A DNA stretch of 64,000 nt from Stenocarpella maydis (taxonomy: Eukaryota > Ascomycota > Sordariomycetes > Diaporthales > Diaporthaceae). The stretch covers positions 248,001 to 312,000 of the forward strand of contig NQMI01000007.1 of NCBI GenBank assembly GCA_002270565.1, given 5' to 3'. The notes beneath the pieces are model-generated. The model ran no database searches and was not told the origin of the DNA. It was given only the letters and a program-made list of their open reading frames with translations. Positions within the stretch are counted from its first letter, which is position 1, and each line of letters begins with the position of its first letter. This document shows, piece after piece, positions 11,097-35,695 of this stretch. The translations under genes and the position numbers were made by a program.

Positions 11097-11677
11097 TGTT
11101 AAACGGAACCGCTCAGCAGGGCGTTGGTACTCCGTGCAAGGAGTTACCCTAGACTTCGTTGTAAGGAGTTACCCTAGACTTTCTAGTAAGGAGTTACCCT
11201 AGACTTGCGAGTCAGGCGATTTTCGCTAAGTACGCCCAGTGCGTGCGTGANNNNNNNNNNNNNNNNNNNNNNNNNTATATCTCAGGCACCAGTCTACCTC
11301 TGCATTACCTTTATTTCTTATCCAAAAATTATATAACTTAGTTCATTAGGTAGCTTGATTTTTGAAGTTTGTATGTACTTATTTTGGGTATTGCTAGGGC
11401 TTTGGTTGGCTGGTTGCTTTGAACTAAAGATGGTGTGTTTGAAGGGCGAATTTTCTGGTATTTGTAAATTTGCACTAGAGCCTACCGTAGTGTGCCCAGG
11501 GGTGAGACGACGTCGGAGGGTATATAAGGAGGGCTTACAGAAGCCCAACTTAATTCAATACAAAGTTGTCCAGACCATTGTTAATCATCCCAATTCGCCT
11601 CAGAGCACCATACTGCAACCCTGCCGAAATACACAAACGCTGAACTGAATGCTATTCTATAGCACAAATTCATCAGA
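11097..11677 (+). repeat. LTR copy A of second retroelement family, RIP-mutated, with 25-base internal subrepeats
   Basis: Starts TGTTAAACGGAACC and ends TTCATCAGA, matching copies B, C and D. Compared with D it carries C-to-T changes at many CpA/CpG sites, a one-strand RIP pattern. It holds three 25-base units beginning AAGGAGTTACCCTAGACTT at 11137, 11162 and 11187, where the other copies have one. A 25-N gap at 11251–11275 interrupts it. Flanks (AGTAT and CATAT) do not form a target duplication. A short frame across the TATATAAGG box is an LTR artefact, not a gene. Confidence 0.75.
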
Positions 11678-15546: not shown

Positions 15547-16074
15547 TCTGATGAATTTGTGCTATAAAATAGCATTCAGTTCAGCGTGTGTGTGTTTCGG
15601 CAGGGTTGCAGTATGGTGCTCTGAGGCGAATTGGGACGATTGACAATGGTCTGGACAACTTTGTATTGAATTAAGTTGGGCTTCTGTAAGCCCTCCTTAT
15701 ATACCCTCCGACGTCGTCTCACCCCTGGGCACGCTGCGGTAGGCTCTGGTGCAAATTTGCAAATGCCGGAAAATTCGCCCTTCCAACACACCATCTTTGG
15801 TTCCAAGCAACTAGCCAACCATAGCCCTAGCAATACCCAAATTAAGTACATATAAACTTCAGAAATCAAGCTATCCAATGCACTAAGTTATATACTTTTT
15901 GGGTAAGAAATAAGGGTAATGCAGAGGTCTAAATTAAGGTGCAAATGCAGGCCAAAATAATCGACTCACGGCCACCAAACTCATCTTGCGTCACGCACGC
16001 ACTGGGCGTACTTAGCGAAAATCGCCTGACTCGCAAGTCTAGGGTAACTCCTTGCTGAGCGGTTCCGTTTAACA
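15547..16074 (-). repeat. Solo LTR copy B with 5-base target duplication
   Basis: A 528-base LTR in minus orientation, TCTGATGAATTTG…GTTTAACA, flanked on both sides by AGTAC (15542–15546 and 16075–16079). This is a clean retroelement target-site duplication around a solo LTR. It is near-identical to copies C and D and not RIP-mutated, so it inserted into the already decaying Gypsy element recently. Confidence 0.85.
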
Positions 16075-17700: not shown

Positions 17701-17754
17701 TAATCATTACAATCTAAAGCATTAATCTACTATTAAATCAATCTTTCTTGCTAC

Positions 17755-17900
17755 GTAATAAAATTACCCATAGGAATACCCATGGGTTGTGGGTACCCAT
17801 GGGTAATTAATTATGTAATTTGGGTCCTTCTTTAAAGTTGCACCCAAAGTCCGTGCACGGGTACCCATGGGTACCCATGGGTGGGTAATTCCTGGGCCTA
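17755..17900. repeat. Subterminal GGGTACCC palindrome cluster and right TIR of hAT element 1
   Basis: Repeated ACCCATGGGTACCC-type palindromes (for example 17778–17812 and 17857–17884) precede the terminal GTGGGTAATTCCTGGGCCTA. The same arrangement, mirrored, occurs at 27847–27960. Such arrays are typical binding sites of hAT transposases. Confidence 0.7.
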
Positions 17901-18327
17901 CTTGAAACAAGGACTATCATCTTCATAGAATAAGAGAATTCTGTCAGGTTTCCCTAGACTGCAGAACCCGTCTCACACATCATAGTGGAATCCGACATTC
18001 TGAAAACACTGCCTGAACCTCGTCATCATGCTTCCGGCCTGGGTTAAAGCACCACTCAAAAAGATGAGCGCAGCGGTTTCAGTGAAGTGTCAAAACCTTG
18101 GCTCGTAACGTAAGGATCTGTGTCCACCACAGGCCAGGGCCTGCTGGGCGCCGTGTTCACGGGTTACATGGATTTGAGTGACCCCTAGTGCCCATGTATA
18201 TTGTGTACAAGCGCATCACATCCCAGGTGTCGCAGACAAGAGGAATCGTGCCAAGCAGCAAAGTCATTAAAGTATGACCTATTTCAAACAGACTTGGTGT
18301 CCAAGAAGAGTGATTATCATCACACAC

Positions 18328-20043
18328 TCATGAGGAAGAGTAATAGTTGCCAAAGCCAACGGCGCAAGCAGTGTCGAAATCGGACACGAAGAAGTGCGAC
18401 AGGTCCTGCTCGTCGATATCGAAGCAGAACTCGCACTCCGTCTTGGTGGTATGCCCGAATGAGTAATCGTGACTACAAGATCCCCCGGGGCTCGACCCGG
18501 GCGGCGACGCACGGGTGGCCTCTGCCTCGAACCTGTCGATGACAGAGCCCATGACCTCGGCAAGCAGATGCCGGTCGACCTTGTCGCGGTCGTCCCTCGT
18601 GTCGATGACACCCGAGATTATCTCGGGGCCCTTGCTTTTCCACAGGTCTCGCATCAGCGGGATCATCTCCTCCACGTGGTTGCCGATGAAGGCGGACTGA
18701 GGGCGCCGGTGGCACGGGAAGATGATGTCCCAGACCTCGAACCACTGGTCCTGCTGCGACTTCTTCCTGTGTGAGCTCTTCTTGAGCTCGACCCTCTGGT
18801 CTTCTGATATGCCCTCGAAGCCCGGCGGCTCCCGCCTCTCGCAGTCGGCACGGCGCGAGTGCTCGTCCCGCTGGTCAGGCGAGCTGAAGAGCCTGTAGCA
18901 GCGGGCACAGTAGTAAGGCGGCTGGGTATGCTGCCGGTAGATGTGCTGCTTGACGTCCTTGATGCGGTTCAGGGTGTACTTGAGGCACTTGTGGTACTTG
19001 TGCGGGTCGAACTTCTGGAACGGGCAGGCGAAGGCCACGTTGGGCCCCTTCTCGTTGTTATCCGCGCTGATGGGCCTGGTCTGCTGAACCTTTTGGTTGC
19101 AGTGCGCTGCTGCTGCTGCTTCGTCAGGGAACGCGGTCAGCAGGGACCGCTTTCGGTGAGACGTGCTGGCGGCGCTCGTTTGTGTCCCATCCCCCGGTGA
19201 AAGCTGGTACAGGTCGCAATCATAGGTGTTGGGGATCCAGAAATCGGGGTCTGTCGGATGGATGAAAACATCTTCCGGCGGGGGCGTTGTTCGGGAAGCG
19301 AAATCCGCAATTGACGCCTGGCTCACAGATACTGAATTGGCCAGGGGGCTCCCGGGCCCAGAGGTCAAGGCTGGGAGCGCCTCGCCATCGACGCAATACG
19401 GTGTGTCAAACGCATCATCTGCTCCGGCGCTCCCAATCTGTAGATCTAGTGGTTTCCAGCCCAGAACACTGGACGACGTGGCAGAAATGCCCAGCGTATA
19501 GATCCAATGAGATGCGTTGACTTCCAAAATTGACTTATCCTTGCCAAAGAAGATTAAGTTTTTTGCGTTCACGAGTATATCTTGCATTCGGTTGTCTTGT
19601 TCCTTCCTCTCTTCCTGGTCACTTTGATTGACACAAACGGTGTCCACCCATATTGTCTTCGACTCGATTTGGCTTCGAATGTTACGCAACGCTTCCAGGA
19701 GGTTTTCGCTGACAGTCATTGGTTCATCATTCACATGTATGGTCTCTCGTGGTTCTTGACTTCCCCAGACACGGGATAGCACCTCGTAGGTTCTTGACAA
19801 GCTGGGTGCCAAGCGCCGGTGAAGCAACTTGGTTTGAATCGACGTGCTGTGGTCCTGACTCGGGCTGATAGTCAACAGCCTGATCTCACCAGGCCCCAGA
19901 GCATTGTACTCGAACTTCTTGGGCCGTGGCGCGATGCGAATTGGTAGCTGGGCCGAGTTGCTCCTCGGTCGCTCCTCGTGTCGGACGGCTCCTGAGCGGC
20001 TCGCGTGGGAGACCTTGGGGACATTAGAAGTCATTCTCGTCAT
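18328..20043 (-). CDS. HET-domain protein fused to a fungal Cys/His zinc-finger-like domain
   Basis: A single open frame of 571 residues starting at the ATG at 20043; an upstream in-frame TTG is not used. Residues about 45–175 carry HET (heterokaryon incompatibility) signatures: a YNALGPGEIRLLTI start, YEVLSRVWG, TIHVND, NLLEALRNIRSQIE, TIWVDTVCVNQ, then ER…Q…M. The family mediates non-self recognition and programmed cell death in ascomycetes. Residues about 340–450 hold a second module: ACPFQKFDPHKYHKC, TLNRIKDVKQHIYRQH, YYCARCYRLF, an H…C end, and WFEVWDIIFPCHRRPQSAFI. This is a Cys/His cluster common in fungal proteins of unknown function. The linker is low-complexity. The neighbour at 22.2–23.4 kb has the same second module without HET. 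No intron or frameshift is seen. Confidence 0.85.
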   Translation of the reverse strand: MTRMTSNVPKVSHASRSGAVRHEERPRSNSAQLPIRIAPRPKKFEYNALGPGEIRLLTISPSQDHSTSIQTKLLHRRLAPSLSRTYEVLSRVWGSQEPRETIHVNDEPMTVSENLLEALRNIRSQIESKTIWVDTVCVNQSDQEERKEQDNRMQDILVNAKNLIFFGKDKSILEVNASHWIYTLGISATSSSVLGWKPLDLQIGSAGADDAFDTPYCVDGEALPALTSGPGSPLANSVSVSQASIADFASRTTPPPEDVFIHPTDPDFWIPNTYDCDLYQLSPGDGTQTSAASTSHRKRSLLTAFPDEAAAAAHCNQKVQQTRPISADNNEKGPNVAFACPFQKFDPHKYHKCLKYTLNRIKDVKQHIYRQHTQPPYYCARCYRLFSSPDQRDEHSRRADCERREPPGFEGISEDQRVELKKSSHRKKSQQDQWFEVWDIIFPCHRRPQSAFIGNHVEEMIPLMRDLWKSKGPEIISGVIDTRDDRDKVDRHLLAEVMGSVIDRFEAEATRASPPGSSPGGSCSHDYSFGHTTKTECEFCFDIDEQDLSHFFVSDFDTACAVGFGNYYSSS

Positions 20044-22158
20044 TTCCAACCGGGATATTGCTAGCTTTCTTTTGGATGCCGCGGATGTATAGGGCTAGAA
20101 TGAAGTCACTGATCAGTATTTGCCCATTGGAAGAAGACATTGTCCGATTCAGTTGAACGGAATACGGTCGGGCCAGGCGGATCCCGGCCAGCGTTTGTCT
20201 TGCAACACCACCTGGGCACCCTGTTATTGCTTCTCTCATTTGTTTAGTGATCCCCTGGGCCTCAGTACAGGGGTATTAATGCTTCCCCATGCAGGCAAAC
20301 GCCTAGGCACCATCGGGATTGCCTGACATAGGCTAGGCGATCCTGCAGCAAGTACGCAGTTGCGTACCTCGTGCAGAATGTCCTCGTGCATCAGCAATTG
20401 GGGTCCGAGAAAACAAGGCGTCCGAGTACGCAAGTGTGTAGTCGGTCATGAATTCAGCCCAACTTGCCCGCTGTACGTCCCTGCGCCACTGATGTGCAAT
20501 CCCGGAATGCCGCATCATCCACACTCCCACTGCATGTCACACGTTTGATTCAGAGTTGGTCATAATGACGAGCAACAAGCCCGCTGAAAAGAGGCAGCCA
20601 ACTTGATTTGGATTGGTTAAAACTACTTGCACTCGCAAATTCCCACCTCACAGCGGCCTAGCGGTTGGCTATTGGTTACATGATGCGGTAACACCATCTG
20701 GATGATTGAGGCCAGCCCCGCGCTTCTCTCCACTGGACCGGACCACCTGCACACAATCGCTATAGTACCCAACGAGTATCTAACCCTCTCCCTTCTGGCT
20801 ACAATAAAAGGTCTACATTGGCTATAGCCCGCGCGGCATCCTTCCTTTTCGCGCTGGTCTTTGACTTCCGGCTTGTCGGCGGCTTGTTCTGCAACATCTG
20901 ATGGTTTATTGGTGGGCAGGGGTCCTGCTGCCATCGTGCGATGCTTTCGGCTTGGAAATATGCCATACTTGTGCGGGGAGTGGTCAGCTTGGGACGGGCA
21001 CTGGGTGGGGGTCGGTGGTCTTACACAGCTGTAGACGAACTGCCAGTGGTGTGTGACGAGCCTGCTGGAGTGCGGCTGCTTTCAGTGAGCTGAAATCGGT
21101 CGCTTTTCGTCATTTTGGGCACCTTAAGAGATTGATGAGTTCTCCAAGTCAACGTTCAACTGTGCTAGTCAAAGAAACACTTGGGATTCTCTCAGGTGCT
21201 CGACAATAACGTCCTGTCTGCGCGGTTATATCTGCCCATCCGAGCACACAGCTGCGCAACTCTACTCAACAATACTGCGGGCGCGCTGGGGTTTCTCCTG
21301 AGCATCCCTCATACTAACGGGCGGGCCTGAAGCCGTACGCAGTTGTGTTTGCACCGCTGCGTACGTGAACTGGGTGCAGTGGGGTGCAGTGCTGGCGCGC
21401 TCCCTCATTGATCGACCACCCTTGTCCGTTAGCCCCCTCTCACCGACCCTGGGATATGGTGCGCGGACTACGAGGACCACCACGCAGGAGCGTGCTGGAC
21501 GTAGGGTGATGGCTGCTGCCTCGGACTTAAGGCGGTTGTCATCAAGAGGTGAGGCGCGCAGCGCGCAGTCCGGTTCGGAGGCGCACACGCGTGTAGACAC
21601 TGAAAATGCCTAACTCACTGATCCCAGAATCTGGGTTGCCTAAGGCATTTTTTTTTGGGCCCCTGGTATGCAAATATTATTGGTAGAAACCAGACCGCAC
21701 ATGAGCGTGATTGGTGAGATGATTGCACACACGCACCTGGGTAAGTAGACTATCAGGACGAGGCAACTCGTTGCTCACAACCCTTGGCCTCCTTTTCCTG
21801 TCACCTCGAACTGACCTGTGTGCTTTTCTGTCCTTCCTTCCCCGCTCTTGCCTGGATTATTTGTGGGTGGACCGTGAATAACCTAACACGCCCCATCCAG
21901 CACACGCCACTCGTCCCCGGCCTCCCATGCCCAGTTGCCGTGTTTGAACGTTGTGATCCTCAATTATCGATTTGTATACTCGGACCGCACGGTGGAGGAA
22001 CAAGTCCAACCTAAATCGTGCTGTTGTGCCAGTTGCCTCTGGCCGATGCGAACAATGGCTTTGTCTTCGCGTAAGGCTCCATCCCCTTTAACTCGCCACC
22101 GCAGGGAATTCCTTCCAGTGCTGACCAGCTGAAAGAGCCCGAAGAAGCAACAATTCCT
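20044..22158. other. Intergenic between HET and zinc-finger genes, no supported gene
   Basis: Short frames occur on both strands (for example minus 20934–20623 and 20530–20333), but none has a known motif. A T8G3 run lies near 21650. Pyrimidine-rich DNA at 21780–22100 is probably leader or promoter of the next gene. Confidence 0.4.
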
Positions 22159-23439
22159 TTGCCCATCATTGTTATCTGCATCATTTACCTACTTTCTCGC
22201 TTTTTCGACTTCACGAGATCTACCTTATATATATCCTTGCCGATACTCAACCCCGTCCACTGTTTCCTTGAACAATTGGCCTGCACGCTGTGGTGGCCAT
22301 ACTTGGTAGCGACATGGGGCGAACCGGTTCGTGCGGGTGAATCTGCGGGTAGGCGATCGACGGGGGCCTGCAGGTCGGGGGCTACCAACGAAACCTGTGG
22401 GCCTGCGAACTCAAATGGGCCCAGGCCTGGCCTGAACACAACGAATACAGCAAGCAATCAACATCGAAAACGAAAGAGAAAGGACGAGGATGACAAGGGC
22501 CCGCCGAAGACCAAAAGGCTCGATGCCGGCCAACAATCAAACCCATTTGCTTGTCCGTTCTACTTGCACGACCGTCACGAGTGGTCCAACTGCCTGCGGA
22601 ACTACACCCTGAACCGCATCGTCGACGTTCGCCTGCACCTTCATAGAGCTCATGCGCTGGCGCCGCAGTGCCCCGTCTGTGGTCAAGAGTTCAGAGAGGG
22701 CCGGAATGAGAACGGCTCGCCCGAGGATCGATGCGACATGCACATCCGACGCCGGGCCTGCCGTCCTCCGCCGTCCCCTCTTCCAGCCCGCCACGGACTC
22801 AACGGCGACGTCCTTGGGGAAGTGCGAAGGGTTGCTGCGCGCAGGAACGGCCAGGATGCGGCAGACCCAGCGGCCGCAAAGTGGTTCGACATATGGGACA
22901 TCATCTTCCCCGGGACACCCCGCCCGGCTTCACCGTACATCCGGGACCACGCCGACGTACAGCGCATAAGGGACATGAACAATGGCATCTTTTCTGGTGA
23001 GGAATGGAGGGATCTGACCAGGGGGGGCAGCCCTTCCCTCACCAACCTGTCCCGGATCGCCCTCATGACAGTCGCAGACAGATTTGTAGCAATCTACCGG
23101 CGAATGTACCGCGGCTCAAGCCAGCCAGCCTCTGAAGCCGAAGGCAGTACAGTGGCTCGTACCCCTGAGGCCAGTCCGGCTCCCCAGTCCCCGCAGCAGC
23201 CCCTTGGCTGGGATGCCCTGCCAATGCCACCAATGCCACCATTTCAACCAACTACAGCATCCACGGGAGATGATCAATGGCTGTCAATCTTTAGCTTGGA
23301 AGAACCCAACGACCCTCTTGAGCCCTCGGCCCGTCCCGGCTCACCATCCCAGTTCCTTGACGGCATCAACTTCGGGCCGGACCCTTCTGAGTTTTGGGAT
23401 CATCCTGGCGACGCTACAGACGACACGGGTCCAGGCTAA
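22159..23439 (+). CDS. Cys/His zinc-finger-like protein related to the HET fusion's C-terminal module (start unresolved)
   Basis: Open frame to TAA at 23439. The certain coding part, from about 22370 on, has a basic patch (HRKRKRKDEDDKGPPKTKR), then FACPFYLHDRHEWSNC, TLNRIVDVRLHLHRAH, QCPVCGQEF, a CDMHIRRRAC end and WFDIWDIIFPGTPRPASPYI. This is the same Cys/His module as the HET protein at 18.3–20.0 kb, in the same order. The C-terminus is Pro/Ser-rich and acidic. The open frame has no in-frame ATG before the module, so the listed left end is only the limit of the open frame. One possible start is ATG at 22313 joined over a very short intron ending CTGCAG at 22372; this is not proven. The basic patch could be a nuclear signal (inferred). 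No HET domain is present. Confidence 0.7.
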   Translation: MPIIVICIIYLLSRFFDFTRSTLYISLPILNPVHCFLEQLACTLWWPYLVATWGEPVRAGESAGRRSTGACRSGATNETCGPANSNGPRPGLNTTNTASNQHRKRKRKDEDDKGPPKTKRLDAGQQSNPFACPFYLHDRHEWSNCLRNYTLNRIVDVRLHLHRAHALAPQCPVCGQEFREGRNENGSPEDRCDMHIRRRACRPPPSPLPARHGLNGDVLGEVRRVAARRNGQDAADPAAAKWFDIWDIIFPGTPRPASPYIRDHADVQRIRDMNNGIFSGEEWRDLTRGGSPSLTNLSRIALMTVADRFVAIYRRMYRGSSQPASEAEGSTVARTPEASPAPQSPQQPLGWDALPMPPMPPFQPTTASTGDDQWLSIFSLEEPNDPLEPSARPGSPSQFLDGINFGPDPSEFWDHPGDATDDTGPG

Positions 23440-25173
23440 GAACATTGCCGCCGGGTCTAGGGTCCTGCTGATGCAACCTACTATACCACCGCCCGTCAGA
23501 ACTGCGCCCGTGGACGGCGGGGCTGGCGGTGAAGTTGTTGGTACATGGCTAGCCATGTTCTACTCTAGCAATAGCGACATGGGCTACTCAAGTACTTGGG
23601 CCTGCCAGAATTCAGTTTTGGGCCACTACAAGTCGATCCCGCAAAGTTTCGTCGTGTGCACTGCGACGTCCAGGGCCTGAGCTCGCCCCCAAGTTTTCCG
23701 GGGGTCCTCGAGCCTTGCCTAAACTCCCCTGCCTAAAATAGTTCTACGGCGGTGCATGGAACCGGCGAAAGCAGTCACGTCCCGGGTCGGCGTTCACGCA
23801 CCCAGTAGGGTAAATACAAGAAATTAAGCATGCGACACATCCAGTTCCCTTATACCTTTGCATACAAACAATCAAATAAAGTTAGATTACTGGCTTGATG
23901 ATTACCGGTGTTATTCTATTCGGGTTGTGATTGGCAACCTGAGTCGTGCCCTGAAAGTGTCTAAAACAGACATGCCCTGCACGCACGTCCTTGAGAGTGT
24001 CTTTGAATACTAATTTCGATGACCGCGTTACACTCGAGGTGCGAATATGCCGAAATGCACTGATGGAGTATATGCGAGTCGAAACAAAGTGACTGGATGA
24101 TGGCGAATTCACACATTTAGAATCAGTGTCCGGCTGTCCAGTCACTTGATCAGACTTTACACCAAGCTGGAGACCCGGCTGACAAGCACAGATCTGCGCG
24201 AATACCTAGCCCCATGAGTCTCAAGTACGATTCTCTCGGATTTGTTCAGTTGTAAAACCTAAGACGTCTTCAGCTCTGTACTAAGGGATCTATAGGATGG
24301 TATAAGAATTACAGTGGCACTATCCTTTACCTTAACGTTCGATTTGATTCATTTAGTCGTACCGAGATGTGTTGGATATAGGCATATTTTGGAGGTGATC
24401 TACATCTACTACAACTTAATGCAAAGGGCTCTCCTATTGATCGAGTTCGATACGATACGGCCCAGTCGGCTGGCCATAGATCTGGCACTTAAAATGCCAC
24501 ACCTCCCCATCTCGAACTTTTGGCAGGAGAGAGTGTATCTTAATAATTATCGTGCACCCGAAGGGTTGATGAGCGGTTGGTAGTGAGCACGAGTTCAAGG
24601 TGGAATTTGGTTCGAGTTTTAGCCCTACCTCAGCATACTTGAGAATATTAAGAGACATCATGCCAGCTACCATATAGGGCCTGTTTCTCTTGTGCTTTGT
24701 AGCAAAGACAGGTCTCTGTATATCAGAAATACCAGGTGAAACTACCCAGTCAGATGATAGATTAAAGGAGTCAGGGTTAAATATTACGTCCTTGCAATCC
24801 CTCATGCTACCAGCAAGCTGGGTCTCAAATAGTGAACCAAGTGCTGGCCAAAGTGCAGCCTTTTGCCCCCATGAACCAGCCCGGACATATGTCATGTCTA
24901 CTGCTTCACCTGACTACACTTAAATAAATTCATCTCAGAGTTTCGGAGGCGGACGGCGATGGGATGGAAATTAGAGAAGTAGACGTGAAAACAGCGAGCT
25001 CTATCAATCAGACATGCTGGTCCTTGAAAGGCTGGGAAGCAGCTAGAAGATGCGTAAATTGATATACTGTGCTGACCCTGTCCCCCCACACGTTATAAGG
25101 TTATGCAAAGAACTATATAAAAGCTCAACTGTCTCGCACCAGACCGACCCGATAAGTCCCCCATGATGTCTCC
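23440..25173. other. Intergenic; weak minus-strand frame at 24434–24895
   Basis: A 153-codon minus-strand frame starting at the ATG at 24895 (MTYVRAGSWGQKAALWP…) looks protein-like in its first 95 residues, but I recognise no family and find no matching splice context. Nothing else is supported. Confidence 0.3.
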
Positions 25174-25760
25174 CTAAGACGCGACCTTCTCAGGAAGGAG
25201 AGGCGCATTCACGACGACGGTAGACTTACGGAGCCTGTCGATTTTCTGTAGTTCAAGTTTTGATAAAGGTGCTCTGACGGAGGTTTTTGCGACACGCGCA
25301 TTTTTTTCCTTTCGCGCAGCCTTGACATTCTCGTGGACCTTCACCCGCAGTCGCGCCGTGGTGCCGAATCCTTCTTCCTGGAGCTTGTCCAATGGCTGAG
25401 GGGTATGTTCCGATTCGAGGCATTTGATCTTGCCGTAACCACCACCGGTTAGCAACATCAATAGCCCTGTCGAAGTTAGTCGCTGCGGATAAGTGCTATG
25501 ATGCCCTGCAAGCCTCTCACGGCTCGTGGACTTTCCAGCAGATCGAATCGATTTCTGAACTTACTATCATTGATAACATTTTGTATAAATGTTTCAGAGA
25601 TTCGAGTGCATATGAACTGTTTATCCCGGAGGTATGGCGTGCCGGCTTGCCTTAGGCCCAAGGGGTCTTTAGGGTTTTCCGCCATGAAGATACCACCACC
25701 GAAGGCGTTCCCCTCAAACCACCAACCTGACTCCCCTAGTTCTTTGGGGGGCTGGCTCAT
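25174..25760 (-). pseudogene. Putative small gene broken by a frameshift
   Basis: A minus-strand frame from ATG 25760 (MSQPPKELGESGWWFEGN…) runs 94 codons to a TAA at about 25476. A second frame, offset by one base, begins around the same point (LTSTGLLMLLTGGGYGK) and continues to 25174 with a basic, coding-like sequence. The two parts lack a convincing donor and acceptor between them, so a one-base deletion is the simplest reading. No family is recognised. It could also be two unrelated frames. Confidence 0.35.
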
Positions 25761-26193
25761 AGCGTCAAATAATATTTAATTAATAAATAAAGTTAATGAA
25801 ATATTTGATATAATATTTAAATAGCATGAAACAAATATCTTGTGGGTAGACCTTGCGTGATTTCGCACCGGTTGGTTCGGGCGCAGCACTGCCAACCAAC
25901 CGATCGACCTCAGCGGCCCCACTTTTCCTCCGCACAGCTCTTGTTCACCACTTTCTTCCATCACTGCAGAACCACGTCAACACCGTGACGCCTTCGACAT
26001 CTCCATTCTGCTCTCAGTTTACTCACACCATCTACTTTGCAAAGTCGGTCTCGAAACAACACCATGGTCAAGCAGATGCCACTGAGGTGGGAACCTCGGC
26101 ATCGCTCCGAAGCCCCCTCCAGAGTTCATACACAAAAGCCGGGTAGATCAAGTCCTCGACGATGCCCACCAAAGAGCACTCGACTGTGCGGTA

Positions 26194-27275
26194 ATGAGCA
26201 TTATCTCCACACCAATTGCGGAAGAGACCTTTGCCCAGATCATGGACGGGCTCCCTCTGAGAAGCGTAGCCTTGGGGACTCAGAACCATCGGGTTATATG
26301 GGGAGACCCGATCGACAATCATCCTGAAATGTGCCCTGGGGCACTTGAGAAGGCCAGAGAGTTCCGAAAGAGGCTTTATACGAGGGGCCTGGAGGTTACA
26401 TCAGCCGTAAGTAATGAAGGATTAACAATCAAAAATACTACAGACACAACTAACGGCTGACTAGGTTCTAGGCCATCCAGCGGTATCAAAATACCCCTGT
26501 CGGCTCTAAAGCCTCCAAGATGCCTTTCTTGGAGTTAGCTGCGGTGACTATACATAACATCGCCGTAGAGCTCTTCAAACTAGCCAACGGGGGTTTTCAT
26601 AAGGACATCACATGGCCTAGCGACGAAGCCTATCGAGAGCAGAATTGGTCGAGATGGCCAACGCCTTTCTGCCTGTTTCACTATTCAAAACCAGAGCAGT
26701 ACCCTGATGTAATTGCTGACTTGGCGGGTTACTGGGCTGAAGACCGAATCTTTGGTGGAGTCGTGCTTTTTGGTCGAGGTACCAACGATACCGGCGTATG
26801 TTCCACTTCCAACCCCGCCACCCTCGTCTCAAGCAGAATGGGATTAAATTACGACACATATGAACGATCATCCAGTCGAGAACTGATTTGCTCACATGGT
26901 GTTGTTTTCCAGTCTACTTACGACGGCATATGGTTCCATTCTCACCGCGACGATGTTACGAAGCGGATATATGCGCTTACAGAGGAGCAGACAGCGAACC
27001 TGCTGCAGTTCCTTGAGAAGGGACAGACTGATGGCTCCGTGTGCCCATTGCCAATCCTGGGAGACATCACGAACCGGCGGCGGGTGGATGAGGAGGTTGC
27101 CATCCCGGAGTTCAACGTGTACCGGGACCGGTGGGAACGAACAGTTGACTACCGAAACTGGCAGGACTATCGTTACCAGCAGCACCATTGCAGAAACGCC
27201 ATAGACTGGCCGGAGATCCTGGACTATCAGGAGAAGCTCAGGCGAGAATTTGATAGTCGACCGGACAGGAACTAA
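26194..27275 (+). CDS. Conserved fungal protein of unknown function, two exons
   Basis: The model is join(26194..26406, 26472..27275), 338 residues. The 65-base intron (GTAAGT…CTGACTAGGTTCTAG) is phase 0. The C-terminal half has landmarks of a family common in plant-associated Sordariomycetes: AVELFKLANGG, DVIADLAGYWAEDRIFGGVV, GIWFHSHRDDVTKRIYALTEEQ, CPLPILGD, and EFNVYRDRWER. The family's function is unknown. There is no signal peptide or membrane helix. Upstream codons stay open in the same frame to about 26083 (…EFIHKSRVDQVLDDAHQRAL), and a well-placed ATG at 26063 after AACACC lies in another frame. The real start may therefore be further upstream, with a missed intron or a frameshift. 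Confidence 0.75.
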
Positions 27276-27846
27276 GACTTCCGGTCTGTGAAATTCCAAG
27301 ATGAGATTTAAGGTGTTACAAGTATATCAGTGCCCATATTCTATGCCCGGGTAACCTTTGCGCCGCAACTCAACGCACATCATCTTTCATATCTGGCCCT
27401 TGACCACCGTCAGTTTGTCCATCAGCTTCATGAAATCGTTCTCATCCGAGTATTTCCCCCCATCGTTCGCTTTTCTCATAATGCCCCCCCCCCCCAGTAT
27501 CGGTCAGCTTGGCCAGCTTGTATCTCTTGACGAGTAAGGTCCTGACCAGGATGAGATTTCGCCAACCTATCTGAGGCATCACCTTCTCCAGGAGCAGGGT
27601 CCAAAACGATGGAGAGAGTCCTCATGTTGACAGGGCGCTCTGCCTCGCACAGGAAGTCTCGCGGCGTGATGCTGCCGTCCATCCGAGCCATGGATCTGTG
27701 CTGCCTTGACGATCTGCCCGACCACTCAAGGTCATCTCTCATAAGCAAATCGGACTTGATGCCAGTAGGGAGAAAATAGAAGAGCTTTCACATGACATAA
27801 CATAAAGCACCAACGAGTCGGACACCCTACATAAACGAGTTGGACA
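27276..27846. other. Intergenic flank of hAT element 2; 12-C run
   Basis: A homopolymer of 12 C lies at 27484–27495. Minus-strand frames on either side (27748–27496 and about 27480–27395, ending LMDKLTVVKGQI) would join only across this run, hinting at a broken gene or a base-count error. No family is recognised. Confidence 0.3.
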
Positions 27847-27960
27847 TAGGCCCAGGAATTACCCGCGGGTGGGTAATTTCCAAATGGGTACCCGAGGACC
27901 CGTGGGTAATTGCAGGGATAAAATTACCCATGGGTCCTTGGCGGGTACCCACGGGTTTTA
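27847..27960. repeat. Left TIR and subterminal GGGTACCC palindromes of hAT element 2
   Basis: TAGGCCCAGGAATTACCC starts at 27847. It is followed by GCGGGT, ATGGGTACCC, ACCCGTGGGTAA, ACCCATGGGT and GCGGGTACCCACGGGT units. This is the same architecture as the right end of element 1, inverted. Confidence 0.75.
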
Positions 27961-28141
27961 ATTTCATTAATGTAAAATCTTCGATTGCTCTGTTAAGCTT
28001 CTGTCCTGTATATCTGATTAGGACGCAGATTAGGACGGAATGATGTAGAATCTTTTCCTAGACACTATCCTTATCTTTACTATCTGGTTACTGTGCAGGC
28101 AGTTTCTTTCCGCCCTTTAAAGGCACCTGATAACTATCCAT

Positions 28142-28681
28142 CTATCTGGTTGACCGGATAATATGATAACCCTGCATAATCTTACAGACTGCATCAGCAA
28201 GCTTAAAATCCTTTTGTATAATAGTAATGCGCTTTCCGTAGATAGCATATAGATTGGCAGCTATTAAATATTAGCTATTGATTAGGATATGGATTAGGAT
28301 AGACTTACCCTCCATGCGTGTAGTAATGTATTCCTCAGCAGCCTCCTGTAGGGCAGCTAAGGCAGAGGATTGAATCCGTTTGGGTTTATAGCTTATATCC
28401 CCTATAATCTCCCGGATGAGATGCTGAAAAGGAAGCTTTGGGATCAACAAACATATTGACTGCTGAAAAGATCGGATCTGCCTTAGAGTAATAGCTAGAA
28501 ATAATGTTAGAATAATTATAAAAAATAATAATAATAATAATAATAACTTACTATTAGACTTGAATCTTCTGCGACGCTTAGCTACCTTGCTGCTATTGGC
28601 TGTGGTAGGGGGTGGAAGATATCTGCTGCCGACCTTTTTGCCCTTTCCACCAGTAGCTCGGGTATTTTTGGTTTGGGCCAT
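28142..28681 (-). CDS. Histone H3-like protein encoded within a hAT-type element
   Basis: The minus-strand model has exons 28681..28552, 28494..28309 and 28260..28142; all phases agree, giving 144 residues (canonical H3 is about 136). The introns are 57 bases (GTAAGT…TTCTAG, with a TTA microsatellite) and 48 bases (GTAAGT…AATAG, with two TATCCTAATC copies). The tail starts MAQTKNTRATGGKGKK, an edited form of the H3 tail. The histone fold is unmistakable: TLRQIRSFQQS (αN), LLIPKLPFQHLIREI (α1), QSSALAALQEAAEEYI (α2), NLYAIYGKRITIIQKDF then KLA (α3). Differences from canonical H3: R2 is Q; the tail is two residues shorter around K9–S10; loop 1 has one extra residue (GDISYKPKRIQSS); and a GYHIIRSTR extension replaces the usual end. 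There are no stops or frameshifts, unlike its neighbours. An open upstream segment at about 28750–28830 (TGRPLQAAAKAASL) might be an extra 5' exon. The role is unknown; nucleosome incorporation is inference. Confidence 0.88.
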
Positions 28682-29192
28682 CTTGATTATAGCTTGGAAA
28701 TTGTTAGTAGAAAGATTAGGATAAAGATTAGGATAAATGAAACTTACTTGCGGGCTTAGCAGTAGGAAAAAGTAGTGCAGTTAAGGATGCAGCCTTAGCT
28801 GCAGCTTGCAGAGGTCGGCCAGTAACTGAAAAACCTATTTTAAAATAAATATTAATTAAAAAGAACATTATTAAATAAAATATTATATATATACCAGTAG
28901 GTTTATTTTTTATATGGTTGTTGGTAGGTGGTTGTTTAGGTTAGAAGTTATTACTATTTTGGTTGTTAGGGACCCACTGCAGCAGCAGCTTAGTGCAGCG
29001 CTAGGTGGCCCGTGTATAGCTGCACCCCACCATAAAAACGCGCGTTAGAAGCAGCAGCCAACTTACCTTCTACCAACTCAACATCACCTAAGAAAAATCC
29101 CCTAAATTTTTATAGATGCTATATGCAACTAGTAAGTATTATTTAATGCTATAAACGTCCTAATTATTATCCTAATTAATTTTTCTTAGCCC
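28682..29192. promoter_or_regulatory. Shared upstream region between H3-like gene and gene B
   Basis: Divergent genes imply a common promoter here. The region holds a CAG-rich patch at 28976–28996 and a GC-richer segment to about 29060, within otherwise AT-rich DNA. Intron-like stretches with paired TCCTAAT motifs occur on the minus side (28710–28740) and the plus side (29150–29175), so both transcripts may have extra 5' exons. Confidence 0.4.
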
Positions 29193-31050
29193 AATATGCT
29201 GAAATGCAAACGTGATGAGGAGTACTCACAAAACCCTCATACAGTCAAAGCCAATAAGTGAGTCCAGGCAATGACTGAACAGGAAAAAGAAGTCTACAAG
29301 GCAAAAGACAAGGTTACCAAGGCAGTTAACCAAGCCCTCAAAGATCTGCAGAACAATAAAGAATGGAAAGCTGCATCTCAACCTGCGCGCGAGCTACTTA
29401 AAAAGTACTACTGAGAAAGGGTGAACGCCAAGTAGTAAGTTTATTACACTAAACTTATCCTAATCAGTATCCTAATCCTTAAAGCTATAATAACGGCTCC
29501 CACCCGAACCAAATTACCCAAAATCACGGAATCCTCACCACCAATAAGGATGCAGATTGGGTAATTAAAGCTAAGATAGAAGAGGAGGTCCAGCAGATTA
29601 AGCAACACGATATTACTCAATACAGCACAAAGGAAAACGCCCGCTCCTATGATCTCATCAGGGGTACATTAGATCTCTACCAGGAAAATGCTCCTAATTC
29701 TGCTTGGGAGTCTGCAGTTATTCAAATAATAGCCAGCTATTACCCTCTTGCTCAAAACAAAAGGAGTTTCTCTACTACCATCAAGGATATCATATAAGTA
29801 TTACAGCAAATTCATACCAACAAGAGATACCCGGATGAGTTAGTCTACCTAAAGCCTAATGGGGACTTAAAAAAGCAAGTCCAAGAGACTAGAGTAAATT
29901 TATCCTAATCTCTATCCTAATCACAACCAGCTAATATATATTTAGGGGCAAGCTTTTACAAATACAACCAGAAAAGCTTTACTTCATTCATTCCAGAGCT
30001 ACTAGGAGATAGCTCTACAAGGGCTATACATAAAGCTCTGGGCTATTCAACACCAGCCTAGCCGAGCTTTCAATTTCCTCAGAGCTTATCAGGTCTACCT
30101 AGAATGCTTTCCTGATAGTCCTCTATAGTTTAAGGAGGACCTCCGCTTCAACAAATCAGCCAAGAAGCAAGAGCAGCAATTCCATAATATCTTTCAGAAT
30201 CTCTTAAACAAACAAAGATCTAAAGATTACCTTAAATCTAATTGGGAAGATTTACCTAAGAATAACCACATCTACATTAGCGCTAATCCCCAGCCTTACA
30301 TTCTTCCCTTCCCAAATATCTAGGAGATACTTACTCTCCCAGAGGCAGTAATCTAGCGTAAGATTATTCAAACCAAGAAATAGCTGCCAAAGAAGCCCCA
30401 GATAATACAGAACGGAATAAAGAAGGCAGCAGCTAAAAAACCAAAGTATATTCATAAGCAGGATACTCAGCAGTAAGTATAATTTATCCTAACTCATATC
30501 CTAATCTAACAAATTATAGGCGCAGCTACTTCTACACCCGGACAATTTATATAGGTGGAGGTAAAATAATTAAGGATAGGTAAGATTATAATTATATTTA
30601 TTTTATAAAATATTCACTAACAATAACGAGATCATCTCCATTCTTCAGTCGCTACCTCAGCCTTAGAGGCCGTCGTAAAAGAGTTAGCCCACCTACCCAC
30701 CATACAAATCTCTCTTCCCAATTCCATATCAATTCTATCCGGAATTTCAGTTGGAATATTAATTAGGGAATATATGCAGCCTTCATAAGCAGGAAGCCCA
30801 CCATCCTTACCCCCGGAACTCTCCCAAGCATTCGCAATTCTAAGCATAGCCTTACTATTGCATTGGTTAAGGGCCGGAAGATCCAGAACACACATCAGGT
30901 GGTATTCTATAAGGGAGAAAATATAACCTTAAATGGGGACTGCCTTGCCTTACAGAGCAACAATAGCATACCAGACCCCCGGCTAGACTACCAGATAGCA
31001 TTAGAGCGATTAGACAAAATAGCAGAGTAGATCAGCAGCCGGATTAAATT
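29193..31050 (+). pseudogene. Gene B of hAT element 2: unknown multi-exon protein, RIP-damaged
   Basis: From ATG 29193 (MLKCKRDEEYSQNPHTVKAN) the frame follows at least four exons. Junctions are near 29434 and 29480 (GTAAGT…TTAAAG), 29894 and 29947 (GTAAAT…TTTAG), and 30475 and 30520 (GTAAGT…TATAG). The frame is preserved across the splices. Readable parts include MTEQEKEVYKAKDKVTKAVN, SAWESAVIQIIASYYPLAQ, ALQGLYIKLWAIQHQPSRAF, and a Lys-rich end KKAAAKKPKYIHKQD. Stops are almost all TAG/TGA/TAA where CAG/CGA/CAA fits, so they look like RIP damage to one gene. The part after 30600 is GC-richer and open in more than one frame, and its exon is not settled. I recognise no family. Confidence 0.55.
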
Positions 31051-31136
31051 ATAATTAGAACAGTGATTAGGATAGGCCTTTTATTGCTAGTAATGAATAA
31101 TAAATTCATTAAGTTATTATATTTCCTTTTAGCTTA

Positions 31137-31815
31137 TTACTTATAATTTTTAATAGCTGAAGGTCCTTTAGCAATATTGTTGTCCTCTTTGCATGTAATG
31201 CATACTAAAGCCCTACTAAAAAAAAGTATTAGCTTAATAATATTTTAATATTAAAAAAAAACATACCATCAAATATAATAACTAAATACTTTTCTGATGC
31301 TTCCTAAAGCCCAATAATTGCCTCCCGTTGCCATCATAGGTTAGGATGCCTTTAATTGCTAATTTCTTGAACCAATCTACTAAAACTTATAAACGGAAGA
31401 ACCAGCTCTATACTCTTTTATAGGCATTAAATCTCTTGGTAAGCAGCACCTATATATAATTTAAGTAAATATCCTAATCGTTATCCTAATCAGTTTATTA
31501 CTTACGTTCTGGCTTATTCCTCTATATACCTCCTGATTTTACTGCTATTAGCTTTCTGCAGCCATTACCTCAAACTGGGACTTTATTCACAAGACTTATA
31601 TTTCCTGCTAAAGTCCCTTTTAGTGCTTTCTATACCGTCTTATTATGCTTCCTTTACTTGGGAATCACTCATAATCTCAATAGTATTTCTAGGATCTCAC
31701 TCCCAAACCTAGGTGAGGGCATCATAGGAAGTAGGGCAAGATCATCTCAAACTCTATCAGATATATCCTCTATATCTAAGTCAGATAATGCCTCAGTATC
31801 AGATAAACAAGGCAT
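31137..31815 (-). pseudogene. Gene C of hAT element 2: unknown protein, RIP-damaged
   Basis: The minus-strand ATG at 31815 opens MPCLSDTEALSDLDIEDISD, followed by FGSEILEILLRL, LAGNISLVNKVPV and GCRKLIAVKSGG with TGA/TAG/TAA stops at former CGA/CAG/CAA codons. An intron (GTAAGT near 31510, with two CTAATC-type motifs) leads to WFKKLAIKGILTYDGNGRQ. A last exon reads VCITCKEDNNIAKGPSAIK, with a CxxC, before the stop at 31137. No family is recognised. The acidic N-terminus and CxxC tail might suit a chromatin or DNA-associated protein, but that is a guess. Confidence 0.5.
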
Positions 31816-31999
31816 AATAGTAAGGTAATTAGGTAATATAAGAGGAGGGTAGAGAAGGAAATGAAAATTAAGTTGAGAAAAATTTAATACCTAAAGCTGG
31901 GTTATTTATCCATGCAAGCAGGGTTCAAACTTTAAATCATATAATCTAAAATCTCATTCCTTTTATTATCTTTAACTCTATCCTAATCTTTTTCCTAAT

Positions 32000-34640
32000 T
32001 CTTCATCCTTCATCCCTTACATCATAATATCTGCCTCAGGCTCTATATCACCATTACCCTTAATATCAGGCTCTACTCTACTAGATTCTATATCTAAGTT
32101 CTCTAATTCTAATAGTAGTATACCTACTTACCAGCCATCCTCAAGAAATATTAGCTTCTAGTCATCAGATAAGCCCTCCTAGCGAGTTAATAGCCAAGTT
32201 AATAATATCAGCTTATAGCACTTCCCTATAATCAGCATTAACAATAATATATATCGCTTCGATACTGAATATACTAATCAGTTCATAGAGTGGTTTTATT
32301 TACAACCATATATTAATCACTAGTAGCACAGCAATAGAGATGCCAGCCAGAGGCGCGATAAGGCTCAAACCTATTTTCTTAGAGAGAATAGGAGGTCTAC
32401 TAATACATAGCCGAAGTTCTACCCAGGTGCTAGAATCACTAGTGGGACTCCAGTAGTTATCTGTAAGGCTTGCAATAAGGAGCTTTCACACCCTTTATTT
32501 ACTGGGCAGAGAACTTCTTCTATAAGGAAGCATCTTATATTAGTAAAATATTCAAACCCAGGTACCTAGAGTCAGCCATTATCTTCCTATAATATAGATA
32601 CTATAGCTATAGTGGAGCCTAACTTAAGAGAGTTTTAGAAATTAAAATATAATAACCTGGTATACTTATATAATCATTTTATCCTAATCATTGTTCTAAT
32701 CATTATCCTAATCAATATTATAGGTAGCTTTACTCCCAACTATCACATAATCTCCTTATTAATAATAAGAGCATCTTATTAAAATGCTTATTATATTAGG
32801 CAAAGGTATAAATATAAGCAAGAATCCCACATTCCTACAACTATACTCCATTAGCAACCCATTCAGTAAGAAAGGATTTAATACAAAAACCTTATATAAG
32901 GTTCTATATAATCTCGCCCAGGAGAGCATATAGTAAATACTCTCACAGAAGCATCCAAATGCTAAAGTTTCCTTAGTTATTAATAACTAGTCCTATAAAG
33001 CTCTTAAATGGTCTTTATAGGGTATAATTATTACATTTATAAATAAGAACTAGAATCTTCACTACACACTTATCAATATTAAGCAACATAACTCCTCCTC
33101 CAATAGGAATACCATATTATAGCTCACAGCTGAAATACTAAAAGCATTAAACTTAGAAGCAAAGACCTTCTATATTACTACTAATAATGTAAAGAACTTT
33201 TCTATAGCTATTATAAGATAGTTAATTAATGGGAAGTTACCTTACAACCAGTATATTCCTATTATACACCAGCTTCCTTATGCTAGCCACTCTCTACAAC
33301 TTAGCAAGGGGGCGTTTTATAGCGAGATGAATGTCCTAAGGGCTAAAACAAGGGCTAAGATCAAGCAATACAGGCTAGAGGACCTAGAAGCCTTAATTCT
33401 TCAGGTATTAGATAAGGGTAGAGAAGACTATAATTAGATATTATTTCAAGTAAGCAGTTATCCTAATCTATATCCTAATTATTTTATATACTAATAATAC
33501 TAATTAGATTCACTAGCTTGCTATTTACATTAATATTAGCACCCAACGGAGGACCCAGTTCAAGGAGTTGCAGCATAAAGCTGCTGATTATAAAGACAAC
33601 AATCAGCAACTATTACAGCTAACCCTTAATGTCCGTACAAGATAGAGCTCAACCACTAATATTACTATTCATGCAAGGAAACTAAGGCATATAATTGCTG
33701 CCTTTATTAAGGAATATCTTCAAACGGAAAAGGATAAGGGTAATTATAAGTGCCTTCAGTACTGCATATTTACACCATAAGAATGGGACCTCTTAGGCAG
33801 CCTCATTAAGTATATAGTTCCGATCTCCTTTCTTACAGCTAAGTTTAAAAGTAAGACAGAATTCCTACTTAATGCAGTATTTCCTAGCTTTAGCTTTATT
33901 CTTTCACAATTAACTAATTTCCGCTAGCTTTACTTCACTAAATTCCAGGCTGGCAATTAACAAGCTAAACAATACCTTTCTAGTATTATAACAGCATATA
34001 ATAAAGTTCAGACCTATATTCACAAGTTTATTAACTTAAAGGAGGTTTTTAGCTTTAGCATCCTTCTTTTACCACTATCTAAAGGCTTGCACAACCATTA
34101 ATAGGAAGGATTTAATTAATTTAAGATATATAGCTCACCTAAATAAATTAGGGACAGGTTGAAGACAAAGTTTAGGCTAAAATATTAAGACTACTAGCCA
34201 TACTCATCCCACAGAATAACAACATCATTAACTCTCTATTGCAGCTTTACTAAAGAAATCTCAAGCAGCCCAACCAAGCTACAAGATACCATAACGCCAT
34301 ACATATAGTTAATAGACCAGGAGCTATAGAAGTTCTTTAATACTAGTAAGCTTATTCTATTTACTATAATTTTTTAGGATTAGGACTAAAATTAAAACAG
34401 CAAAAGCACAAGGTAAAACGGTATTAGAATTTTAGTCTGCTAATAAATGAGCTTTTCCATATTTAGCAAATATAGCTACCAATATATTCAGTGCCTTTCC
34501 TTCTTTAGCTATAGTTAAGCATATATAGAGCTTTACAGATAATCTTTTTGCTAACAATTAATATAATCTTGCTATCCAGAATATTAAAGCCTCCTTAGTA
34601 TTATATATAAATAATAAGAAGGTAGAGAAGCTTCATCAGG
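32000..34640 (+). pseudogene. hAT-family transposase with BED zinc finger, RIP-decayed
   Basis: The plus-strand reading shows, in order: a Ser-rich N-terminus; a BED-type finger near 32455 (VICKACNKELSHPLFTGQ, then SSIRKHL); and a central region with intron-like breaks containing TCCTAAT (about 32690 and 33460). Further on come NVRTR*SST near 33630, matching the hAT RTRWNST motif with Trp changed to a stop, and KYIVPISFLTAKFKSKTEF. The end carries the hAT dimerisation motif, FPYLANIATNIFSAFPSLA near 34455, then FTDNLFANN. Many stops make it inactive. hAT transposases cut and paste DNA between TIRs with 8-base duplications. Position and orientation fit the TIR at 27847. Confidence 0.8.
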
Positions 34641-34674
34641 AATCAGAAGACTATCAGTTTAGTACTCACTATTC

Positions 34675-35182
34675 TCTGATGAATTTGTGCTATAGAATAG
34701 CATTCAGTTCAGCGTGTGTTTCGGCAGGGTCGCAGTGTGGTGCTCTGAGGCGAATTGGGACGATTGACAATGGTCTGGACAACTTTGTATTGAATTAAGT
34801 TGGGCTTCTGTAAGCCCTCCTTATATCCCCTCCGACGTCGTCTCACCCCTGGGCACGCTGCGGTAGGCTCTGGTGCAAATTTGCAAATGCCGGAAAATTC
34901 GCCCTTCCAACACACCATCTTTGGTTCCAAGCAACCAGCCAACCATAGCCCTAGCAATACCCAAATTAAGTACATATAAACTTCAGAAATCAAGCTATCC
35001 AATGCACTAAGTCATATACTTTTTGGGTAAGAAATAAGGGTAATGCAGAGGTCTGAATTAAGGTGCAAATGCAGGCCAAAATAATCGACTCACGGCCACC
35101 AAACTCATCTTGCGTCACGCACGCACTGGGCGTACTTAGCGAAAATCGCCTGACTCGCAAGTCTAGGGTAACTCCTTGCTAG
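34675..35182 (-). repeat. LTR copy C (minus), truncated at an N
   Basis: Starts TCTGATGAATTTG as copy B does, and runs to CTTGCTAG before the N at 35183. It lacks the outer TGTTAAACGGAACCGCTCAG. It is near-identical to D, in inverted orientation, and has no RIP signature. Confidence 0.8.
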
Positions 35183-35183
35183 N

Positions 35184-35695
35184 CTAGCAAGGAGTTACCC
35201 TAGACTTGCGAGTCAGGCGATTTTCGCTAAGTACGCCCAGTGCGTGCGTGACGCAAGATGAGTTTGGTGGCCGTGAGTCGATTATTTTGGCCTGCATTTG
35301 CACCTTAATTCAGACCTCTGCATTACCCTTATTTCTTACCCAAAAAATATATGACCTAGTGCATTGGATAGCTTGATTTCCGAAGTTTATATGTACTTAA
35401 TTTGGGTATTGCTAGGGCTATGGTTGGCTGGTTGCTTGGAACCAAAGATGGTGTGTTGGAAGGGCGAATTTTCCGGCATTTGCAAATTTGCACCAGAGCC
35501 TACCGCAGCGTGCCCAGGGGTGAGACGACGTCGGAGGGTATATAAGGAGGGCTTACAGAAGCCCAACTTAATTCAATACAAAGTTGTCCAGACCATTGTC
35601 AATCGTCCCAATTCGCCTCAGAGCACCATACTGCGACCCTGCCGAAACACACACACGCTGAACTGAATGCTATTCTATAGCACAAATTCATCAGA
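35184..35695 (+). repeat. LTR copy D (plus), head-to-head with copy C
   Basis: Begins CTAGCAAGGAGTTACC and ends TTCATCAGA. It contains a TATATAAGG box at 35539 and downstream sequence that would be the LTR R region. C and D form an approximately 510-base-arm palindrome around a single N. The apparent 100-codon frames inside are products of the LTR sequence and cross the TATA box. Confidence 0.8.

Follow-up and report, generated by a model that had tools for sequence, protein, structure and literature searches.

A hAT-type transposon family of Stenocarpella maydis with two divergent histone H3-like genes and repeat-induced point mutation damage

Transposons of the hAT type that carry histone H3-like genes have been described in fungi. 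Manning et al. 2013 (PMC3538342) reported them from Pyrenophora tritici-repentis, where a form of about 5.6 kb, with a transposase and a central open reading frame (ORF), occurs in 10 copies and a 2.3-kb recombinant short form in 16. The H3-like protein, H3L, falls in neither H3 nor CenH3, has insertions in its amino tail and is represented by expressed sequence tags (ESTs); an effect on chromatin is raised by these authors as an open question. Dhillon et al. 2019 (PMC6710886) counted 784 H3-like sequences among 471 hAT elements of Pseudocercospora fijiensis, one or two in each, and found that five further species of Mycosphaerellaceae, including members of Cercospora and Sphaerulina, had undergone this event too. 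The extra copies are all broken by repeat-induced point mutation (RIP). They infer transcript capture for both the Mycosphaerellaceae and the P. tritici-repentis cases. The Mycosphaerellaceae elements show no sequence similarity to that of P. tritici-repentis, a kinship that, according to the authors, RIP may mask. Here we describe a family in Stenocarpella maydis whose members read as dead hAT-type cut-and-paste elements with two predicted H3-type histones, H3A and H3B, encoded on the strand opposite the transposase. The copy that we take as reference lies in a window of 64,000 nucleotides, positions 248,001 to 312,000 of contig NQMI01000007.1 (C279 below), in a genome assembly of 53.5 Mb in 312 contigs.

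The original prediction for this locus held that no transposon carrying an H3 gene had been described, a claim that the two papers overturn. Two later papers cite PMC6710886, and one of them mentions the P. fijiensis case. In PMC4994206 the H3 and transposon wording is confined to the reference list. No report of H3 in a transposon beyond these two papers turned up in a literature in which most items were judged from less than their full text. The S. maydis family has the published layout, namely an H3-like gene and a transposase (its domains below Pfam cut-offs) between terminal inverted repeats (TIRs) flanked by 8-bp duplications. Set against the available text of PMC3538342 and PMC6710886, three features are new: two H3 genes that have introns and differ strongly from each other, an H3A tail without a lysine at the K9 position and a sequence doublet nearly confined to the family.

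H3A occupies 28142..28681 on the minus strand, with exons at 28552-28681, 28309-28494 and 28145-28260 and a TAG stop at 28142-28144. The introns and splice sites given here for H3A, H3B, the central gene and the transposase are all predicted from sequence. The window copy has 144 codons in three exons without an internal stop, in the place and with the exon number originally proposed, and is the sole stop-free copy read. Its 3' splice site was chosen to give ...TRMEAANLYAIYGK..., a stretch equal in length to that of H3. In the 143-residue form that preceded this correction, the product scores 73.1 bits against Pfam family Histone (PF00125, cut-off 26.4), its best PDB match is the Histone H3.1 chain 8kcb (6e-24), and the best 60 of 178 PDB matches are all H3-type chains. 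The H3A introns are 48 nt long (16 codons) except for one of 57 nt in the window. An open stretch upstream, an ORF at 28728..28940 on the minus strand, could be joined by two typical introns and may thus supply H3A with further exons, either as an extended tail or as a spliced leader.

The window contains another Histone match, at 31271-31444, which led to H3B (31139..31815, minus strand; exons 31506-31815, 31267-31449 and 31139-31215), which has a tail of about 100 residues. Two unknown genes had been placed between H3A and the transposase; one of them is H3B, whose kinship to H3 had been missed. The window copy has 12 in-frame stops before its natural end, and the five copies read have 7 to 13 stops each over the length that was read, the natural end being counted where reached. 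H3B occurs in five of the seven elements, those of the window, C267 (twice), C257, C273 and C30 (last exon only). With X placed at the stops, a C267 copy scores 43.2 bits against PF00125, and the best 60 of 173 PDB matches of H3B are again all H3-type chains. The protein has a Trp in loop 1 and a tail that is not of the canonical H3 type.

The ends of the elements tie H3A to a transposon. As DNA queries against the genome, the H3A gene gave 8 matches at seven loci and the left end gave 30 matches; only the best candidates were scored, so both counts are lower bounds. Thirteen TIR loci were taken, each with about 10 kb inward where the contig permitted (only 5.3 kb is available at C273, and at C255 Ns make up 4.7 kb, so that little of the C255 element is covered). 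Short TIRs are present (TAGGCCCAGGAATTACCC / GGGTAATTCCTGGGCCTA). The left TIR of the window element, TAGGCCCAGGAATTACCCGCGGGT, lies at 27847..27870 on the plus strand and starts with TAGGCCCAGGAATTACCC; the right TIRs of its relatives finish ...ACCCATGGGTGGGTAATTCCTGGGCCTA. At all seven H3A loci the family TIR is found about 300-400 bp past the 3' end of H3A in the same orientation, and in six of the seven H3A-bearing elements an identical 8-bp duplication stands at both ends. For C257 (GAACGACC), C30 (GCTCCAGC) and C12 (CTGCCTAA), both TIRs and both duplications are on a single contig with H3A inside. Three further ends pair across contigs by identical 8 bp: the window element, with GTTGGACA at 27839..27846, pairs with the sequence after the right TIR at C267:117141, C273 (GCCACCGG) pairs with C153, and C255 (CTTGAAAC) pairs with position 17900 of the window, where 17712..17908 on the plus strand is the right end of another such element (189 bp, 96% identical to C30) together with its duplication. 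For the left end on C267 (TACTTAGA), none of the right ends examined is a match. The C30 element measures 8000 bp (8.0 kb) between its ends, including an internal duplication and three single Ns, and those of C257 and C12 measure 3.0 kb and 11.8 kb, the latter with diverged ends.

The assembly itself is broken within these repeated elements, with single Ns and with element ends split over contigs, and one could suppose that the H3-like gene is no part of a transposon but a chance neighbour or an artefact of assembly. Three elements complete on one contig, and the adjacency of H3A to a TIR at seven of seven loci, make this scarcely credible. Because the contigs have single Ns inside the elements, the cross-contig end pairs are read as misjoins or rearrangements. 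The start of the window element at 27847 stands as first proposed, while its end does not: at 34674 the element is interrupted by an LTR-like (long terminal repeat-like) repeat of about 0.6 kb and by a scaffold join marked with a single N. Two inverted copies of this repeat, of about 0.5 kb each, surround the single N (35183) at 34675..35695, and this join severs the right end, leaving the element without a contiguous right TIR in the window.

The transposase can be followed in three plus-strand stretches. The first, at 32297..32680, resembles a BED-type zinc finger below the Pfam threshold (zf-BED, 13.7 bits in the window and 17.4 in C267; cut-off 20.6). The central stretch, at 33003..33434, has no Pfam match above cut-off, and a PDB profile search with four of its copies gave no match; by eye it looks hAT-like. 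The C-terminal stretch, at 34427..34669, has a counterpart at C153:10154 that matches the hAT dimerisation domain (PF05699) with 17.6 bits, below the cut-off of 21.4; the window and C30 transposase pieces give no match to PF05699, and the only other match in the genome at E<=1 (C268, 18.4 bits) is outside the family. No piece of the transposase or of the unknown genes exceeded a Pfam cut-off. The original assignment as a BED/hAT transposase thus draws on weak domain matches together with the TIR and the 8-bp duplication. Six transposase stretches were found in the genome, all with stops and all inside H3-carrying elements, provided that C153 is assigned to the C273 element, as its right-hand part, on the strength of the duplication that the two have in common. 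Several copies hold an H3-like gene and this transposase between matching TIRs with 8-bp duplications, as had been predicted, and H3A is accompanied by the TIR at each of its seven loci. Against a strict linkage of H3, transposase and TIR speak six of the 13 TIR loci (C311, C56, C23, C294, C272 and C218), which have no tblastn match to H3A, H3B or the transposase stretch within about 10 kb each. The C56 locus (157-493, as oriented) has a miniature inverted-repeat transposable element of about 337 bp with family TIRs, whose flanking bases match at 7 of 8 positions.

H3A and H3B are distant from each other, with 28 of 92 core residues in common (30% identity), and each has more in common with the host H3 (46 of 96 or, in a second count, 47 of 94 core residues for H3A, and 38 of 90 or 39 of 88 for H3B). 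Their predicted introns nevertheless fall at codons aligned with the T of PGT|VALREI and the D of LFED|TNL, all in phase 1, whereas host H3 and CenH3 have instead a common phase-0 intron before VRE. Since both positions and phases agree, the two genes most likely share an intron-bearing ancestor. The pair probably arose as paralogues or by two separate captures of a gene with those introns. That ancestor may have been a host gene with these introns or a captured transcript that gained them later. The idea that H3A and H3B cannot be captured transcripts was dropped, since both lack the host introns and a transcript captured before intron gain also fits. A CenH3 origin of H3B, considered for its loop 1 Trp and long tail, found no support: in a tree with only two to three well-supported branches, and a long one for C12, neither protein falls with host CenH3 or with Cnp1. 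Relative to H3, loop 1 is longer by one residue in H3A, by none in H3B and by three in host CenH3.

What these genes do for the element, if anything, is the question on which readings diverge. The original prediction proposed that the histone may mark the chromatin of the element, help it to resist silencing or direct its insertion. In the explanation that we favor, at a probability of about one half, an active element would encode a transposase and one or two unknown proteins on one strand and H3A and H3B on the other, and these histones would serve it as nucleosomal anti-silencing variants. Once expressed, they would join host H4 in nucleosomes as variants of H3. The mark of heterochromatin is placed at Lys9 (K9) of H3. 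A lysine at that position is absent from all four H3A copies with a readable tail exon, whose tails read MAQTKNTRATGGKGKK (window), MARTKNAXATGGKGKK (C273), MARTKNAXATSGKGKK (C257) and IAXTKNARATGRKGKK (C267). There would thus be no heterochromatin mark there, and an H3A that cannot carry it would favor expression or mobility of the element. The recurrence of H3 cargo in P. tritici-repentis, with ESTs, and in hAT elements of the Mycosphaerellaceae also argues for this explanation (PMC3538342, PMC6710886).

The chief rival is passive cargo, or transduplication, in which a hAT element accidentally captured a host H3 and the H3 genes hitch-hike without function for the element. This is how Dhillon et al. 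read the H3 sequences of Mycosphaerellaceae, as captured transcripts killed by RIP (PMC6710886), and the absence of host introns from both S. maydis genes is what a captured transcript would leave. It accounts less readily for a single element that holds two different H3 genes whose predicted introns sit at identical positions, or for the same cargo in the elements of P. tritici-repentis and Mycosphaerellaceae (PMC3538342 and PMC6710886). Comparing C279 with C267 gives 568 transitions and 4 transversions, and 353 of the 568 transitions are in CpA context; the corresponding transitions and transversions are 175/1 for C279-C257, 447/7 for C279-C273 and 525/38 for C279-C30. Within H3A, the four main-group copies whose three exons are clearly readable differ pairwise by 44-54 transitions and no transversions. 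Since changes are almost exclusively transitions, the family spread as near-identical copies, which RIP then mutated and inactivated.

Through this damage the histone core has kept its frame in the copies of H3A and H3B compared, except in C30, and H3B has a signal of constraint. Transversions by codon position number 29/21/46 between H3B and host H3 (p=0.006) and 34/23/45 between H3A and H3B (p=0.03), with no significant third-position excess for a second H3B copy against H3A (31/23/37, p=0.2). For H3B we regard the evidence of constraint as moderate, and this, like the preserved frame of the core, sits poorly with passive cargo. Over the first 75 core positions H3A agrees with host H3 at 38, a value reached in 8, 1 and 0 of 400 neutral simulations of equal transversion load at transition rates of 0.5, 1 and 2; the simulated sequences stayed stop-free in 54, 43 and 30 of 400 runs, respectively.

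Several observations weigh against an anti-silencing role and must be set beside these. Transversions show no third-position excess between H3A and host H3 (25/18/26, p=0.44) or between H3A and its C12 copy (16/11/12, p=0.58); between H3A and C255 they fall mostly at the first position (8/1/1, p=0.007). The lack of such an excess, which passive cargo would also lead one to expect, makes the evidence for constraint on the H3A protein weak. The comparison of H3B with CenH3 is not significant (p=0.07), and part of any third-position excess arose on the host branch. H3B was not detected by tblastn in C12, or in C255, where little of the element is covered, and the H3A tail of C12 differs from that of the main group. 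In the tree mentioned above, H3A and H3B are not sisters; canonical H3 is nearer to each of them than they are to one another, and a common origin sought from the tree finds no support in sequence. RIP-type stops are present in every copy of H3B and of the transposase seen, and in all H3A copies read but that of the window, as passive cargo would have it. Because all the transposase and H3B copies seen are dead, the histones gave the family no lasting protection.

The one stop-free H3A also raises the prospect that the window copy is a domesticated host gene inside an old element, the more so as its exons are richer in G+C (0.442) than the element (0.356) or H3B (0.350). It differs from its three closest copies by transitions only, however, and its start bears a RIP-type change (AQTK, where C257 and C273 have ARTK), and we consider domestication very improbable. 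Taking both sides together, passive cargo is a tenable explanation to which we give rather less than an even chance, and on the question of whether the histones serve the element we lean slightly toward yes. The expression of H3A and H3B, their assembly into nucleosomes and their anti-silencing role would all belong to an active element of the past.

A further feature nearly confined to the family is a repeated motif. Counting ATCCTAATC on both strands gives 16 occurrences in the window's element, where 0.16 are expected, and none in the rest of the window. As a doublet, GATTAGGAY-N3-GATTAGGAY with a 12-bp period, it is found with at most one mismatch at nine places in the window (28016, 28280, 28714, 29457, 29902, 31471, 32681, 32693 and 33460; 21 bp each, two overlapping), against an expectation of 0. 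All nine are in the element, mainly in predicted introns and near both ends. Genome-wide there are 35 such doublets, 34 of which fall by coordinates in H3-carrying hAT elements and one elsewhere (C280); all 20 exact doublets are in these elements, while the motif written backwards as a control gave 4 matches. Doublets occur in both orientations in introns predicted for the two H3 genes, for the central gene and for the transposase. Pairs are also placed about 170-190 bp from the left end in the window, where GATTAGGAC-N3-GATTAGGAC at 28016..28036 on the plus strand begins about 170 bp in, and 190-210 bp from the right end in C30, in which the left-end pair was not seen. A plain branch-point signal is unlikely because the doublet is reversed in the first predicted intron of H3B and is found outside genes. 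Hermes, a hAT transposase, binds the left end of its own transposon through BED domains (PMC10368747), and by this analogy the doublet is most simply read as a putative transposase binding site. One could go further and imagine a chromatin kit, in which the transposase or the central protein, bound to doublets, would nucleate nucleosomes of H3A and H3B that cannot be methylated at K9, leaving the element accessible to the transposase that it encodes while heterochromatin of the host forms elsewhere; we think this elaboration improbable.

The remaining features of the element are two plus-strand coding stretches of unknown product. The central gene (29196..30569) has at least four predicted exons and no Pfam match above cut-off; all four of its copies that were compared are interrupted by in-frame stops. 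The second stretch (30663..30929), also without a Pfam match, is present in C267, C273 and C30 as well. The LTR-like repeat of about 0.6 kb (TGTTAAAC...TTCATCAGA) occurs in the window at 11097-11677, 15547-16074 and 34675-35695 and is nested in several of the H3-carrying elements; in C273 it has GCTTC at both flanks, and in the window it forms the inverted pair about a single N. Some 10 kb of the window, 17909-27838, sits between two H3-carrying elements, the partner of C255 and the window element, and the contig may therefore be misjoined at both sides. One element end on C267 recurs with an identical flank 2.8 kb away (114351 and 117141), likely an assembly duplication. In the middle of the C30 copy of H3A (about 580-900, as oriented) single bases are missing at short intervals, unlike in other copies, which looks like poor consensus sequence rather than mutation.

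The H3 genes of hAT elements have so far been regarded chiefly as cargo acquired by capture. A divergent pair of H3 genes with the same introns, a tail without K9 and the doublets turn the use of a transposon histone variant against silencing into a testable question; the available parts of PMC3538342 and PMC6710886 report no such test.

In comparison with canonical H3, the likeness lies in the histone core, in the ARTK start of two H3A copies and in the TGGK of the window and C273 copies, while the differences are the missing K9 lysine, an extra loop 1 residue in H3A, another C-terminus and other introns. The long tail and loop 1 Trp of H3B recall CenH3/CENP-A, but neither protein has the extended loop 1 or groups with CenH3. 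The element of P. tritici-repentis is similar in its TIRs, hAT transposase, central unknown ORF and H3-like gene; it has one H3 gene and near-identical copies with little RIP, whereas that of S. maydis is about 8 kb long, with two divergent H3 genes, and is damaged by RIP (PMC3538342). The elements of Mycosphaerellaceae are alike in TIRs, 8-bp duplications, one or two H3-like sequences and RIP-broken copies. Those of P. fijiensis number in the hundreds, are about 9.5 kb long and carry an H3 read as a captured transcript without introns, with a 16-residue insertion in the second copy that might alternatively be an unspliced 48-nt intron. The S. maydis family has seven loci, predicted introns in both H3 genes and 30% identity between the two (PMC6710886 for the Mycosphaerellaceae).

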